Source: Meghimatium bilineatum
Taxonomy: Eukaryota; Mollusca; Gastropoda; Stylommatophora; Philomycidae
Length of the DNA stretch: 64,000 bases
Assembly (NCBI GenBank): GCA_034231615.1
Contig: CM067298.1
Span: forward strand, 62,960,387 to 63,024,386
Direction: 5' to 3'
Below are positions 12,996 through 22,671 of the stretch, piece by piece (positions within the stretch are counted from its first letter, which is position 1; every line of letters starts with the position of its first letter). Under the pieces are notes generated by a model, which worked only from the letters and a program-made list of their open reading frames with translations, was not told where the DNA came from and did no database searches. The position numbers and the translations under genes are program-made.

Positions 12996-15900
12996 TATAT
13001 AGTTTATCATTAGAAATATTTTTTTTTTATTTTCATTCTTTTCAACACATTTCATAAGTGTATATAGTTTATCAATAGAAATTAATTTTTTAAATTTTCT
13101 TTTTGAAACTTTTCAACACATTTCATAAATCTATCTAGTTTTTATCATTAGAAATATATTTTTTTGATTTTGAAACTTTTCAACACATTTCATAAATGTA
13201 TCTTGTTTATTATTATACATATATTTTTTATTTCCTTTTTCACACTATTCAACACATCTCATAAATGTATCTAGTTTATCATTATAAATATATTTTTTTG
13301 ATTTTCAAACTGTTCAACACATCTCATAAATGTATCTACCGGTAGTTTACCATTAAAAATATATTTTTAAATTTTCTTTTTCAATCTTTTCCACACATCT
13401 CATAAATGTATCTACCGGCAGATTATCACTATAAATATATCTTTTTATTTTCTTTTTCAAACTTTTCAACACATCTCAGAAATGTATCTACCAGTAGTTT
13501 ATCATTAGAAATATATTTTTTTATTTTCTTTTTCAAACTTTTCAACACTTCTCATAAATGTATCTACCAGTAGTTTATCATTAGAAATATATTTTTATTT
13601 TCTTTTTCAAACTTTTCAACACATCTCATAAATGTATCTACTGGTAGTTTATCATTAGAAATATATTTTTTTATTATCTTTTTCAATCTTTTCAACACTT
13701 CTCATAAATGTATCTACCGGTAGATTATCACTAGAAATATATTTTTTTATTTTCTTTTTCAAACTTTTCAACACATTTCATAAATGTATATAGTTTATCA
13801 TTAGAAATATTTTTTTTTAATTTTCTTTTTTAAACTTTTCAGCACATTTCATAAATATATCTAGTTTATCATAAGAAATATATTTTTTTTAAATTTCAAA
13901 CTTTTCAACACATCTCATAAATGTATCTACCAGTAGATTATCACTAGAAATATATCTTTTCATTTTCTTTTTCAAACTTTTCATAAATGTATATAGTTTA
14001 TCATTAGAAATATTTTTTTTTTATTTTCAAACTTTTCAACACATTTTATAAGTGTATATAGTTTATCAATAGAAATTAATTTTTTAATTTTCTTTTTGAA
14101 ACTTTTCAACACATTTCATAAATGTATCTTGTTTATTATTATACATATATTTTTTATTTCCTTTTTCAAATTATTCAACACATCTCATAAATGTATCTAG
14201 TTTATCATTAGAAATATATTTTTTGATTTTCAATCTGTAACACATCTCATAAATGTATCTACCGGTAGAGTATCACTAGAAATATATTTTTTGATTTTTC
14301 ATTTTCAAACTTTTCAACACATTTCATATATGTATATAGTTTATCATTACAAATATTTTTTTAAAATTTTCTTGTTCAAACTTTTCAACATATTTCATAA
14401 ATGTATATAGTTTATCACTAGAAATATATTTTTTGATTTTCTTTTCCAAACTTTTCAACACATTTCATAAATGTATCTAGTTTATCATTAGAAATGTATT
14501 TTTTGATTTTCAAACTTTTCAACACATTTCATAAGTGTATATAGTGTATCAATAGAAATTTATTTTTTGATTTTCTTTTTCAAACTTTTCAAGACATTTC
14601 ATAAATGTATCTTGTTTATTATTATACATATATTTTTTATTTCCTTTTTCACACTATTCAACACATCTCATAAATGTATCTACCGGTAGTTTACCATTAA
14701 AAATATATTTTTAAATTTTCTTTTTCAATCTTTTCAACACATGTCATAAATGTATCTACCGGCAGATTATCACTAGAAATATATCTTTTCATTTTCTTTT
14801 TCAAACTTTTCAACACATTTCATAAATGTATATAGTTTATCATTAGAAATATTTTTTTTTAATTTTCTTGTTCAAACTTTTCAACACATTTCATAAATGT
14901 ATTTAATTTATCATTAGAAAAATATTTCTTTGATTTTGAAACTTTTCAACACATTTCAGCAATGTATGTAGTTTATCACTAGAAATATATCTTTTCACTT
15001 TCTTTTTCAATCTTTTCAACACTTCTTATAAATGTATATAGTTTATCATTAGAAATATTTTTTTTAATTTTCTTTTTCAAACTTTTCAACACTTCTCATA
15101 AATGTATCTACCGGCAGTTTACCATTAAAAATATATTTTTAAATTTTCTTTTTCAATCTTTTCAACACATCTCATAAATGTATCTACCGGCAGATTATCA
15201 CTAGAAATATATCTTTTCATTTTCTTTTTCAAACTTTTCAACACATTTCAGAAATGTATTTAATTTATCATTAGAAAAATATTTCTTTGATTTTGAAACT
15301 TTTCAACACATTTCAGCAATGTATCTAGTTTATCATTAGAAATATATTTTTTTATTTTCTTTTTCAAACTTTTCAACACATCTCATAAATGTATCTACCG
15401 GTAGATTATCACTAGAAATATATCTTTTAATTTTCTTTCTCAAACTTTTCAACACATTTCATGAATGTATATAGTTTATCATTAGAAATATATTTTTTTA
15501 ATTTTCTTGTTCAAACATTTCAACATATTTCATAAATGTATGTAGTTTATCATTAGAAATATATTGTTTTGATTTTCAAACTTTTCAACACATTTCATAA
15601 ATGTATCTAGTTTATCATTAGAAATATATTTTCTTTAAATTTCAAATTTTCAACACATTTCATAAATGTATGTAGTTTATCACTAGAAATATATCTTTTC
15701 ACTTTCTTTTTCAAACTTTTCAACACTTCTCAGAAATGTATATATTTTATCATTAGAAATATTTTTTTTTATTTTCTTTTTCAAACTTTTCAACACATCT
15801 CAGAAATGTATCTACCAGTAGTTTATCATTAGAAATATATTTTTTTATTTTCTTTTTCAAACTTTTCAACACTTCTCATAAATGTATCTACCAGTAGTTT

Positions 15901-17040: not shown

Positions 17041-17426
17041 TCTCATAAATGTATCTACCGGTAGATTATCACTAGAAATATATTTTTTTTATTTTCTTTT
17101 TCAAACTTTTCAACACATTTCATAAATGTATATAGTTTATCATTAGAAATATTTTTTTATTTTTTTTTTATTTTCTTTTTTTAAAAAACTTTTCAGCACA
17201 TTTCATAAATGTATCTAGTTTATCATAAGAAATATATTTTTTTTAAATTTCAAACTTTTCAACACATCTCATAAATGTATCTACCAGTAGATTATCACTA
17301 GAAATATATCTTTTCATTTTCTTTTTCAAACTTTTCATAAATGTATATAGTTTATCATTAGAAATATTTTTTTATTTTTTTTTTATTTTCAAACTTTTCA
17401 ACACATTTCATAAGTGTATATAGTTT

Positions 17427-17438
17427 ATCAATAGAAAT
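17427..17438 (+). repeat. Target-site duplication, left, insert 1
   Basis: ATCAATAGAAAT directly before the non-satellite insert. An exact copy lies at 18764-18775 on the other side. The preceding base differs (T on the left, A on the right), so the repeat is exactly 12 bp as seen. Confidence 0.8.
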
Positions 17439-17817
17439 GGGGTGCAAAGGGAACGCATTGCTCTAGGCGGACCCAGGGTTAGCAGATAACCAAGATCCCA
17501 AATGTACCTCCACGCGGTGCACCCTGGAAACAGAAATACAGCAGCTCGAGCTGATTCTGGCCAAATCATTTGGGGATCGTGTCCGAGAATGTGGAGGTAG
17601 CAGATGGAAAGAGATTTGACTGCACAAGAGACAGACAATATCTCCGATACCACCAGCATCACCACATATAGCGACACTGTCAACATACAGTGAAGCTAGT
17701 CAGTCCAGTCCGAACATTGGAGGGGCGGCCAATGTAAAATGCACGTAAAGGTAAATGCATGGCGAGAGACAAATATGTTTCATACAGAGTACAATGAAAC
17801 AATGAAAGGGCAGAACA

Positions 17818-17831
17818 GCGCTAGAGGGCAG
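17818..17831 (+). promoter_or_regulatory. CTCF-like motif in insert 1
   Basis: GCGCTAGAGGGCAG matches the known bilaterian CTCF consensus CCASYAGRKGGCRS at 12 of 14 positions, including the whole YAGRKGGCRS core. Binding is not shown; a 1.3-kb sequence can contain such a match by chance. Confidence 0.3.
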
Positions 17832-17987
17832 CGCGAACTGCAAATAGAAAGTAAAAAGTCCCTAGGAAAGGGAACTACAAGCTCCGTCAGCTCGAGACGG
17901 GCTTCTAGTCACCAGAGTTCCTAACAGGCAGAGACTCAGACCCATCCATCGGCGTTTGGTAAAGCAAAAGACCTAAACTAACTCTAA

Positions 17988-18488
17988 TGTCGAGCCTTCC
18001 TAAACCGGAAATATGCTTGCAAAGAGAAAGGGTTCTGTACCCGATGGGTGAAGGCAAGAAAGGGACAACGATGGCAGTCCTGGCCCAACTCTACTGTCAA
18101 GGTTTCCTATACCGGAAGTAACTTGCAGAGAGAAAGGGTTCCATACTCGATTCGCTCAGGCACAAAAGGGACAACGATTTAGCCCTGGCCCAACTCTACT
18201 GTCAGGTTTTCCTACACCGGAAATACACTTGAAGAGAGAAAGGGTTCAGTACCTGATGGGCTCAGGCGCTATTGGGACAAGGACGCTCAGCTCGAGAACG
18301 CCTTGCTCTCAAACACGTGGTGTGAGACTCGAACTTGGACAAGGGGTACACGTCGGAGAATGACACCTCGGCTAAGAGGGCGAAAGAGCCAGTGTCCAAC
18401 TCCTCTGTTGAGTTCTTCCCCTTAAGGAACCAGGCTCACGGATGAGAAACGGTTCGGTACCCAATGGGCACAGGCACAGCACGTCCAA
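17988..18488 (+). repeat. Degenerate ~107-bp tandem repeat inside insert 1
   Basis: Units start at about 17988, 18095 and 18200 (spacings 107 and 105). A diverged unit lies at about 18416, two periods later, with a very decayed one between. Shared words in order are TGTC, TTCCTA, ACCGGAA, AGAGAAAGGGTTC, GGGACAA and CTGGCCCAACTCTAC. ETS-type ACCGGAAAT/ACCGGAAGT sits at 18004, 18111 and 18216. The element therefore contains an older minisatellite. Confidence 0.75.
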
Positions 18489-18763
18489 TTACACGAGGCA
18501 AGTTCATAGACAGTGGAACACCTCGTTTGAGTCAGACTAAGAGCAAGAAAATCGTCTGGGCGAAGAGTCTCCACCACGCGTGCCTGGAGACAGATATAGA
18601 GGCTGTCACAGGCTAAGGGTAGCCCACCCGAATTGTCAAGGCATGCCGAAATCGGATGTGCTAGGCCTACAAGGCGCATAACGGTGGCACAACGTAATCA
18701 CGCTCCCGGCGGAAATCGCACGGATATCCGTGATGGTTACAATGGAGCGAACGAAAAACAAAA

Positions 18764-18775
18764 ATCAATAGAAAT
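18764..18775 (+). repeat. Target-site duplication, right, insert 1
   Basis: Second exact copy of ATCAATAGAAAT, immediately after the A-rich end of the insert. The satellite resumes with TAATTTTTTAATTTTC exactly as at the empty site after 14076. Confidence 0.8.
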
Positions 18776-21322
18776 TAATTTTTTAATTTTCTTTTTGAAA
18801 CTTTTCAACACATTTCATAAATGTATCTTGTTTATTATTATACATATATTTTTTATTTCCTTTTTCAAACTATTCAACACATCTCATAAATGTATCTAGT
18901 TTATCATTAGAAATATATTTTTTGATTTTCAATCTGTAACACATCTCATAAATGTATCTACCGGTAGAGTATCACTAGAAATATATTTTTTGATTTTTCA
19001 TTTTCAAACTTTTCAACACATTTCATAAATGTATATAGTTTATCATTAGAAATATTTTTTTTTAATTTTCTTGTTCAAACTTTTCAACATATTTCATAAA
19101 TGTATATAGTTTATCACTAGAAATATATTTTTTGATTTTCTTTTCCAAACTTTTCAACACATTTCATAAATGTATCTAGTTTATCATTAGAAATGTATTT
19201 TTTGATTTTCAAACTTTTCAACACATTTCATAAGTGTATATAGTGTATCAATAGAAATTTATTTTTTGATTTTCTTTTTCAAACTTTTCAAGACATTTCA
19301 TAAATGTATCTTGTTTATTATTATACATATATTTTTTATTTCCTTTTTCACACTATTCAACACATCTCATAAATGTATCTACCGGTAGTTTACCATTAAA
19401 AATATATTTTTAAATTTTCTTTTTCAATCTTTTCAACACATCTCATAAATGTATCTACCGGCAGATTATCACTAGAAATATATCTTTTCATTTTCTTTTT
19501 CAAACTTTTCAACACATTTCATAAATGTATATAGTTTATCATTAAAAATATTTTTTTTAAATTTTCTTGTTCAAACTTTTCAACACATTTCATAAATGTA
19601 TTTAATTTATCATTAGAAAAATATTTCTTTGATTTTGAAACTTTTCAACACATTTCAGCAATGTATCTAGTTTATCATTAGAAATATATCTTTTCACTTT
19701 CTTTTTCAATCTTTTCAACACTTCTTATAAATGTATATAGTTTATCATTAGAAATATTTTTTTTAATTTTCTTTTTCAAACTTTTCAACACTTCTCATAA
19801 ATGTATCTACCGGCAGTTTACCATTAAAAATATATTTTTAAATTTTCTTTTTCAATCTTTTCAACACATCTCATAAATGTATCTACCGGCAGATTATCAC
19901 TAGAAATATATCTTTTCATTTTCTTTTTCAAACTTTTCAACACATTTCAGAAATGTATTTAATTTATCATTAGAAAAATATTTCTTTGATTTTGAAACTT
20001 TTCAACACATTTCAGCAATGTATCTAGTTTATCATTAGAAATATATTTATTTATTTTCTTTTTCAAACTTTTCAACACATCTCATAAATGTATCTACCGG
20101 TAGATTATCACTAGAAATATATCTTTTCATTTTCTTTCTCAAACTTTTCAACACATTTCATGAATGTATATAGTTTATCATTAGAAATATATTTTTTTAA
20201 TTTTCTTGTTCAAACTTTTCAACATATTTCATAAATGTATCTAGTTTATCATTAGAAATATATTGTTTTGATTTTCAAACTTTTCAACACATTTCATAAA
20301 TGTATCTAGTTTATCATTAGAAATATATTTTCTTTAAATTTCAAATTTTCAACACATTTCATAAATGTATGTAGTTTATCACTAGAAATATATCTTTTCA
20401 CTTTCTTTTTCAAACTTTTCAACACTTCTCATAAATGTATATATTTTATCATTAGAAATATTTTTTTTTATTTTCTTTTTCAAACTTTTCAACACATCTC
20501 AGAAATGTATCTACCAGTAGTTTATCATTAGAAATATATTTTTTTATTTTCTTTATCAAACTTTTCAACACTTTTCATAAAGGTATCTACCAGTAGTTTA
20601 TCATTAGAAATATATTTTTTTATTTTCTTTTTCAAACTTTTCAACACTTCTCATAAATGTATCTACCAGTAGTTTATCATTAGAAATATATTTTTTTATT
20701 TTCTTTTTCAAACTTTTCAACACATCTCATAAATGTATCTACCGGTAGATTATCACTAGAAATATATCTTTTCATTTTCTTTTTCAAACTTTTCATAAAT
20801 GTATATAGTTTATCATTAGAAATATATTTTTTTATTTTCTTTTTCAAACTTTTCAACACTTCTCATAAATGTATCTACCAGTAGTTTATCATTAGAAATA
20901 TATTTTTTTATTTTCTTTTTCAAACTTTTCAACACATCTCATAAATGTATCTACCGGTAGATTATCACTAGAAATATATTTTTTTTATTTTCTTTTTCAA
21001 ACTTTTCAACACATTTCATAAATGTATATAGTTTATCATTAGAAATATTTTTTTATTTTTTTTTTATTTTCTTTTTTTAAAAAACTTTTCAGCACATTTC
21101 ATAAATGTATCTAGTTTATCATAAGAAATATATTTTTTTTAAATTTCAAACTTTTCAACACATCTCATAAATGTATCTACCAGTAGATTATCACTAGAAA
21201 TATATCTTTTCATTTTCTTTTTCAAACTTTTCATAAATGTATATAGTTTATCATTAGAAATATTTTTTTATTTTTTTTTTATTTTCAAACTTTTCAACAC
21301 ATTTCATAAGTGTATATAGTTT

Positions 21323-21334
21323 ATCAATAGAAAT
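21323..21334 (+). repeat. Target-site duplication, left, insert 2
   Basis: ATCAATAGAAAT, the same as at 17427 shifted by 3896. It was copied with the segment and is not evidence of a second insertion. Confidence 0.8.
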
Positions 21335-21713
21335 GGGGTGCAAAGGGAACGCATTGCTCTAGGCGGACCCAGGGTTAGCAGATAACCAAGATCCCAAATG
21401 TACCTCCACGCGGTGCACCCTGGAAACAGAAATACAGCAGCTCGAGCTGATTCTGGCCAAATCATTTGGGGATCGTGTCCGAGAATGTGGAGGTAGCAGA
21501 TGGAAAGAGATTTGACTGCACAAGAGACAGACAATATCTCCGATACCACCAGCATCACCACATATAGCGACACTGTCAACATACAGTGAAGCTAGTCAGT
21601 CCAGTCCGAACATTGGAGGGGCGGCCAATGTAAAATGCACGTAAAGGTAAATGCATGGCGAGAGACAAATATGTTTCATACAGAGTACAATGAAACAATG
21701 AAAGGGCAGAACA

Positions 21714-21727
21714 GCGCTAGAGGGCAG
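21714..21727 (+). promoter_or_regulatory. CTCF-like motif in insert 2
   Basis: Exact copy of the motif at 17818-17831, shifted by 3896. If it is functional, the array has two such sites 3.9 kb apart in the same orientation. Confidence 0.3.
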
Positions 21728-21883
21728 CGCGAACTGCAAATAGAAAGTAAAAAGTCCCTAGGAAAGGGAACTACAAGCTCCGTCAGCTCGAGACGGGCTT
21801 CTAGTCACCAGAGTTCCTAACAGGCAGAGACTCAGACCCATCCATCGGCGTTTGGTAAAGCAAAAGACCTAAACTAACTCTAA

Positions 21884-22384
21884 TGTCGAGCCTTCCTAAA
21901 CCGGAAATATGCTTGCAAAGAGAAAGGGTTCTGTACCCGATGGGTGAAGGCAAGAAAGGGACAACGATGGCAGTCCTGGCCCAACTCTACTGTCAAGGTT
22001 TCCTATACCGGAAGTAACTTGCAGAGAGAAAGGGTTCCATACTCGATTCGCTCAGGCACAAAAGGGACAACGATTTAGCCCTGGCCCAACTCTACTGTCA
22101 GGTTTTCCTACACCGGAAATACACTTGAAGAGAGAAAGGGTTCAGTACCTGATGGGCTCAGGCGCTATTGGGACAAGGACGCTCAGCTCGAGAACGCCTT
22201 GCTCTCAAACGCGTGGTGTGAGACTCGAACTTGGACAAGGGGTACACGTCGGAGAATGACACCTCGGCTAAGAGGGCGAAAGAGCCAGTGTCCAACTCCT
22301 CTGTTGAGTTCTTCCCCTTAAGGAACCAGGCTCACGGATGAGAAACGGTTCGGTACCCAATGGGCACAGGCACAGCACGTCCAA
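21884..22384 (+). repeat. Degenerate ~107-bp tandem repeat inside insert 2
   Basis: Units start at about 21884, 21991, 22096 and 22312. The content matches the 17988-18488 repeat apart from the A/G difference at 22211, which lies in the decayed unit. Confidence 0.75.
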
Positions 22385-22659
22385 TTACACGAGGCAAGTT
22401 CATAGACAGTGGAACACCTCGTTTGAGTCAGACTAAGAGCAAGAAAATCGTCTGGGCGAAGAGTCTCCACCACGCGTGCCTGGAGACAGATATAGAGGCT
22501 GTCACAGGCTAAGGGTAGCCCACCCGAATTGTCAAGGCATGCCGAAATCGGATGTGCTAGGCCTACAAGGCGCATAACGGTGGCACAACGTAATCACGCT
22601 CCCGGCGGAAATCGCACGGATATCCGTGATGGTTACAATGGAGCGAACGAAAAACAAAA

Positions 22660-22671
22660 ATCAATAGAAAT
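22660..22671 (+). repeat. Target-site duplication, right, insert 2
   Basis: ATCAATAGAAAT following the A-rich end of insert 2, copied with the segment from 18764. Confidence 0.8.

Follow-up and report, generated by a model that had tools for sequence, protein, structure and literature searches.

The window analysed here, i.e., the whole stretch of 64,000 nucleotides, is an AT-rich satellite with a period of ~76 bp, and the 1325 bp that interrupt it at 17439–18763 raise the question of what kind of element inserted at this site and by which machinery it was copied. Among the papers listed in literature searches, as distinct from Repbase and Dfam, none showed the element.

Insertion into the satellite and a dispersed family

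The features defining the insertion are the following:

17427–17438, + strand: left target-site duplication ATCAATAGAAAT (from the sequence and the empty site)
17439–18763, + strand: retroposon, 1325 bp (genome search, ends, target duplications)
18764–18775, + strand: right target-site duplication ATCAATAGAAAT (read from the sequence)
14065–14076, + strand: uninterrupted target within the empty satellite segment 13083–15076
21323–22671, + strand: second copy of the element (21335–22659) with the same duplication, in a duplicated inserted satellite segment

As noted in the initial annotation, an exact 12-bp duplication encloses the 1325 bp, whose A-rich right end reads AACGAAAAACAAAA. Since the 12-mer ATCAATAGAAAT occurs 63 times within the satellite window, its match alone is weak evidence, and the empty site was therefore aligned directly. 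The segment 13083–15076, which holds the uninterrupted target proposed earlier with matching satellite on both sides, aligned end to end with the left 1000 bp, the duplication and the right 1000 bp at 97.2% identity (2,022 columns, 7 gap openings), and the element is absent from it. This empty site is the decisive evidence that the insertion at 17439–18763 is real. Including their flanks, the two copies in the window are 98.7% identical over 2,551 columns, and they share both the target-site duplication and the surrounding satellite, from which we infer that the second copy arose by amplification of the already inserted satellite segment and not by a second insertion. As this segment was seemingly duplicated together with its insertion, the latter would be older than one round of satellite amplification and could serve to date it. 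Satellite-like flanks or duplications were also seen at three copies on other contigs (L030 on C14, L035 on C21 and L069 on C1), and the same satellite thus seems to be present on several contigs.

Genome-wide, a search with the element returned 40 places on many contigs at 98–100% identity, these being the places scored of 5,779 first-look candidates. The exact 26-mer of its 5' end occurs 7,372 times (3,724 + 3,648) in the 1.6-Gb genome, and the exact 31-mer of its 3' end 2,326 + 2,313 times, with no occurrence of the reversed control or of the 3' control. Assuming a length of 1.2–1.3 kb for most of the copies behind these 5' ends, the family would amount to roughly 9 Mb, or about 0.6% of the genome. 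When the first 100 entries in the list of 5' ends were matched to the listed exact 3' ends, 46 had a partner; the other 54 presumably have mutated 3' ends. Paired ends give copy sizes clustering near 1,220 and 1,325 bp, two classes apparently separated by a single internal unit of 106 bp, with three copies being shorter.

For the ends and duplications, 68 distinct copies were compared, namely 38 from the genome search with the element, 27 from a search with its 3' end, two from the RF01787 search described below and the window copy; left out were rows L001–L008 (the copy in the window, its duplicate L002 in the satellite and six rows that repeat others), the duplicates L049, L075 and L076 and the diverged L079–L081. 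Both ends were recognized in 67 copies, only L066 lacking the 5' end, and 64 copies start at base 1, the other starts being bases 2, 24 and 67. A target-site duplication (score of at least 8; one mismatch in five cases) flanks 63 of the 64 base-1 copies, L032 having none, while mismatched flank pairs reached this score in 2 of 320 cases. The duplications measure 12 bp (21 copies), 11 bp (20), 13 bp (9), 10 bp (5), 14 bp (4) or 9 bp (1), so that 50 of 63 lie at 11–13 bp, and three more are 21–24 bp long, where the flank itself is apparently repeated. The target sites show a preference for T at position -2 (54/63) and for A as the first duplicated base (47/63). Moreover, 28 of the 30 rows fetched with the exact 120-nt 3' end start at base 1 or 2; these rows were 30 of 40 listed, came from contigs C1–C3 only and included three copies already known from the search with the element.

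The initial annotation had proposed that many dispersed copies with a common right end and differing duplications would establish a retroposon family, and this is what the survey found; neither a single unique locus nor ragged ends lacking duplications, the outcomes named as contrary to it, were observed. A constant 5' start, a common 3' end carrying the simple-repeat tail (CAAA)n and variable-length duplications specific to each site therefore define a LINE-type retroposon family. The family moved recently: the copies L033 and L034 on contigs C25 and C22 differ by zero mismatches and carry different duplications, and the median nearest-neighbor identity in an alignment of 65 rows is 99.5%. 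That the element might instead be a DNA transposon, a Helitron or a unit of the satellite itself could be suggested by its position in the satellite and its duplication with it. This is highly improbable in view of the terminal inverted repeats, of which none were seen here or in the initial annotation, the varying lengths of tail and duplication, the thousands of 5' ends throughout the genome and the other flanking sequence in which most examined copies lie.

Two small arrays were observed among the listed 3' ends. At C25:14946170–14950729, four family 3' ends follow each other at an exact spacing of 1,511 bp, forming a tandem array of which the element is part and which is perhaps a nascent satellite, and at C1:10537681–10543207 three 3' ends lie ~2.1 kb apart in one orientation, forming a small tandem array.

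A predicted HDV-like ribozyme at the 5' end

New in the present analysis is the 5' end of the family: by sequence and pairing, the first 139 nt conform to a complete HDV-like layout, with P1 beginning at base 1.

17439–17577, + strand: predicted HDV-like self-cleaving ribozyme, 139 nt (Rfam RF01787, layout scan, P1 test, pair counts)
17439–17445, + strand: P1 5' strand GGGGTGC (pairing)
17446–17494, + strand: J1/2, 49 nt, with two short predicted hairpins at 17449–17474 and 17477–17491 (folding)
17495–17504, + strand: P2 5' strand ATCCCAAATG (pairing)
17506–17518, + strand: P3 (ACC/GGT) around L3 TCCACGC at 17509–17515 (pairing)
17519–17525, + strand: P1 3' strand GCACCCT (pairing)
17526–17527, + strand: P1.1 3' strand GG, partner of the CC of L3 (invariant in 33 distinct rows)
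17531–17559, + strand: P4 stem-loop (pairing)
17560–17566, + strand: J4/2 GCCAAAT (read from the fold)
17567–17577, + strand: P2 3' strand CATTTGGGGAT with one bulged G (pairing; P2 comprises 10 pairs)

Judged by sequence and pairing, P1, P1.1, P2, P3 and P4 form the nested double pseudoknot together with L3 and a cytosine in J4/2, and by analogy with the HDV ribozyme the C at 17561 or 17562 would be the candidate catalytic residue. In HDV-like ribozymes the cut is described to fall at the first P1 nucleotide (PMC4908430), and here cleavage is predicted immediately 5' of 17439, the first base of the element; such a cut would explain why the copies share one exact 5' start. Cleavage at the 5' end of the element was reported for ribozymes of the R4, L1 and RTE clades and of Drosophila R2 (PMC3774820). 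It is common but not universal, as most of the other R2 elements tested in the same source are cut upstream of the 5' junction. While the initial annotation could not place the element in any family, its predicted HDV-like ribozyme cutting at the first base now groups it with ribozyme-bearing non-autonomous retroposons.

The only Rfam match up to E 1 within 17400–18800 is drz-agam-1 (RF01787) at 17484–17574, scoring 24.2 bits (E=0.036). This falls short of the 37-bit gathering score, which is the curator's cut-off for one family and not a defining feature of the fold. Over the whole genome, and with E allowed to rise to 10, RF01787 gave five matches, all short of the cut-off, the best reaching 31.3 bits; all five resemble the element family, L080 and L081 doing so only in its 5' part. 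Since 11 of the 14 control genomes, from bacteria and archaea, gave equally weak matches in the same search, the Rfam score alone is little proof. With the Rfam model drz-agam-2-2, two places in the genome matched (E 2.87 and 8.38), neither over the cut-off.

The structure line of drz-agam-1 leaves P1 unpaired, and the pairing of P1 is therefore evidence separate from the Rfam match. In fact, of the 1,319 7-mers that the element contains, GGGGTGC at base 1 alone can pair along its whole length with the strand following P3, as compared to 2 of 2,000 random 7-mers. A scan for the layout, devised after the structure was already known, located a single site in the element, its P1 lying at 17439, and nothing on the opposite strand; 60.8 kb of flank (30.4 kb, both strands, scanned in pieces of 400 bases, at whose ends a site would not fit) yielded one site, and among 300 shuffled sequences one had a site and none had P1 at base 1. 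Standard pairs occupy 98.6% of the pair cells in 33 distinct rows, as against 24–46% in slid versions of the structure. Covariation is absent (no pair changed on both sides, shuffle control not exceeded), because these 33 distinct, near-alike rows are too similar, and minimum-energy folding without pseudoknots revealed no excess stability (z -0.50; 61 of 200 shuffles equally stable). The ribozyme region varies less than the rest of the element on average (0.0085 versus 0.0145), a conservation matched by 187 of 1,046 other 140-nt windows; the sampling of copies is biased towards those resembling the window copy, and the apparent conservation of the 3' end is due in part to the selection of copies by it.

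In each of the diverged copies L077–L081, part of P1 or P2 is broken, as would be the case in dead copies. L3 reads TCCACG in 63 aligned young copies and TCCTCG in four of these five diverged ones, L077 having the young form. As a separate observation, L080 and L081 hold only the 5' 340–440 nt of the element, including the ribozyme region, which then give way to microsatellites; they may be broken copies, or a different element may share this 5' module.

Coding content, 3' end and candidate partner LINEs

Downstream of the predicted ribozyme, three further features were found:

17980–18267, + strand: internal tandem repeat, 2.7 units of 106 bp (repeat analysis; copies of ~1220 bp appear one unit short)
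18701–18749, + strand: predicted 3' stem-loop directly before the tail (shuffle test weak)
18750–18763, + strand: 3' tail, with a (CAAA)n extension in other copies

The longest stop-to-stop frame inside the element spans 103 aa, and no reverse transcriptase/endonuclease reading frame as in an autonomous LINE was recognized. Six-frame translation listed 23 ORFs of at least 40 aa; in agreement with the earlier statement that no protein is recognizable, the 10 of them given to Pfam, not strictly the longest, yielded no match over the cut-off. Two sub-threshold Pfam matches (E 0.025 and 0.072) were taken as chance. The 3' stem-loop, with a z of -1.42 and 15 of 200 shuffles equally stable, is a possible candidate for the site at which the reverse transcriptase of a helper would bind.

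An alternative is that the element is a long SINE transcribed by RNA polymerase III, its ribozyme-like fold being incidental or a relic. The element contains a single TTTT run and four B-box-like GGTTC motifs in the window interval 18031–18468 (element bases 593, 699, 805 and 1013), three of them inside the 106-bp repeats, but the resemblance to a B box is partial and no A box was recognized by eye. Neither a tRNA nor, in the Rfam scan up to E 1, a 5S or 7SL match was found, and chance would be expected to place the start of P1 at base 1 in only about 1 of 1,000 cases. Products of polymerase III are, moreover, usually shorter than 1.3 kb. Because no polymerase III gene was found as its source, the element falls outside the SINEs in the strict sense, and we regard this origin as improbable.

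Possible parents or helpers were sought with the profiles RVT_1, Exo_endo_phos_2 and Exo_endo_phos, which found several LINE families among the best 150 places for each profile; 3' stretches were read for some of them, the true 3' end not being recognized in several (L085, L087, L088, L094, L095). An abundant LINE with a 1026-aa frame (L082, L083) has a tail of the type TGATGATGA. Another LINE (L086, L089, L090, L091, L097) has an ORF2 of about 1280 aa and a (CAAA)n tail like that of the element: at least three CAAA units occur in one of the 11 LINE 3' stretches scanned (L086), and the tail was read by eye in L089 and L097. Two side observations concern these LINE loci. Endonuclease matches recur every ~34–54 kb, on one strand per cluster, at C13:4368018–6120736, C13:19711652–19859194 and C17:23252192–23533425, which suggests LINEs caught in large tandem repeats, and one LINE adjoins an STK11-like exon (E 4e-28 to a PDB protein so named).

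One tentative origin is that of a SIDE in the strict sense, internally deleted from a single autonomous LINE with the same ribozyme and 3' end, the parent being now rare or lost. R2 SIDEs and the NARTc and RIME elements of trypanosomatids are described to relate to their LINEs in this way (PMC3414825, PMC4035085), the features of such an element, i.e., a predicted 5' ribozyme, a 3' end and a lack of coding sequence among the 10 of 23 ORFs scanned, are present here, and L080 and L081 share the 5' part before they diverge. The DNA that follows in these two, however, holds no recognized LINE frame. The body of the element is present in all 30 rows fetched by the 3' end (in L066 only from base 564), and therefore none of them is a LINE. 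Also, the pattern of the last 20 nt occurs with foreign upstream bases at 24 sites; 22 of these read CCGTGAT upstream, as a small deletion variant within the element family would give, and the other two do not. In a BLAST comparison of the element with the fetched LINE stretches, only short matches with E of at least 0.098 were obtained, and a relaxed ribozyme scan of the LINE loci gave four weak, chance-like sites (one in L091, two in L084, one in L080), none at a LINE 5' end. Among the LINE stretches examined, nothing of the 3' end is shared beyond the (CAAA)n tail type. We consider a strict SIDE possible, with a probability of roughly one in three.

A comparable degree of caution applies to the proposal that the (CAAA)n-tailed LINE is the helper and the element a hybrid which drew its ribozyme from elsewhere, like the R2/R1 hybrid SIDEs. 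In its favor, this LINE has the same tail, begins with ACTTTGTGATTTAG with no HDV-like layout on its strand, and in one copy (L091 with L097) is flanked by the 12-bp duplication GTCTCCAAAAAC, as read by eye; moreover, a 14-nt motif of the L089 3' end recurs at element bases 928–941 (BLAST E 0.14). This motif sits ~380 nt before the tail of the element and may be chance, the other LINE copy read at both ends (L090 with L086) shows no clear duplication by eye, and tail type and duplication length are unspecific. The (CAAA)n-tailed LINE is the best helper candidate seen, the link to it being weak.

Proposed mobilization and relation to known systems

Taken together, a recently mobile non-autonomous LINE-type retroposon family with a predicted HDV-like self-cleaving ribozyme as its 5' end is the reading we favor, with a probability of about 0.82. 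A copy of this family would be transcribed either as part of a longer RNA or from a promoter lying 5' of base 1, and the nascent RNA would fold and cut itself immediately 5' of base 1, thereby obtaining an identical 5' end whatever lies upstream. A LINE protein supplied in trans could then recognize the 3' stem-loop or the (CAAA)n tail, nick the target DNA and reverse-transcribe the RNA (target-primed reverse transcription), leaving a short duplication. Copying in trans by a LINE is what the duplications and the tail point to.

A more specific version, which we hold to be rather unlikely as it stands, is that of a chimeric ribozyme-capped retroposon, i.e., a non-coding element that acquired its HDV-like ribozyme independently of the helper LINE and needs no promoter of its own, because any host read-through transcript would release an RNA with the right 5' end. 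If true, this would explain how thousands of 5'-complete copies of 1.2–1.3 kb exist in the absence of a ribozyme-bearing parent. In either version, a dispersed, recently active family, mostly 5'-complete among the copies examined, provides a natural experiment on the influence that self-cleavage at the 5' end would have on full-length insertion and promoter independence, and the predicted ribozyme is open to a simple transcription assay.

Ribozyme-bearing non-autonomous LINE-type elements have been described from Drosophila rDNA and from trypanosomatids (PMC3414825, PMC4035085). The R2 SIDEs and R2/R1 hybrid SIDEs of Drosophila are non-coding, with a 5' ribozyme that frees the RNA from a co-transcript and a 3' end that serves the LINE machinery, and the hybrids combine the ribozyme of one LINE with the 3' end of another (PMC3414825). 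The same source reports a U-to-A change in the catalytic region of the hybrid ribozymes, which possibly corresponds in position to the A in L3 of the young copies, where four of the five diverged copies have T. According to its account, Drosophila SIDEs reside in 28S rRNA genes and derive from known R2 and R1 elements, whereas the family described here is dispersed, about 1.2–1.3 kb long and present in thousands of copies, with no parent identified. The element would also work like the NARTc and SIDER elements of trypanosomatids, which carry the Pr77 ribozyme (PMC4035085); NARTc, RIME and SIDER share sequence with L1Tc/ingi LINEs in that description, while no such LINE was found here and the host is unrelated.

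On the level of the fold, the drz-Agam ribozymes (RF01787; PMC4908430) have the same arrangement of P1, P1.1, P2, P3, P4, L3 and J4/2 and an extra J1/2 domain, and large, active HDV-like ribozymes with J1/2 domains are known from this source; the match of the element lies below the gathering score, and the likeness in J1/2 concerns the presence of a domain and not its sequence. Animal retrozymes, as presented in PMC7761336, are likewise non-autonomous non-LTR elements with a self-cleaving ribozyme, here a predicted one, but they use hammerheads and small circular RNAs, whereas the copies of this family are single units with an HDV-like 5' fold, and the Rfam scan of 17400–18800 contained no hammerhead. 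Compared with the SIDEs, NARTc and SIDER, to which it comes closest in its proposed mode of action, the family is thus set apart by being dispersed, longer and without a known ribozyme-bearing parent.
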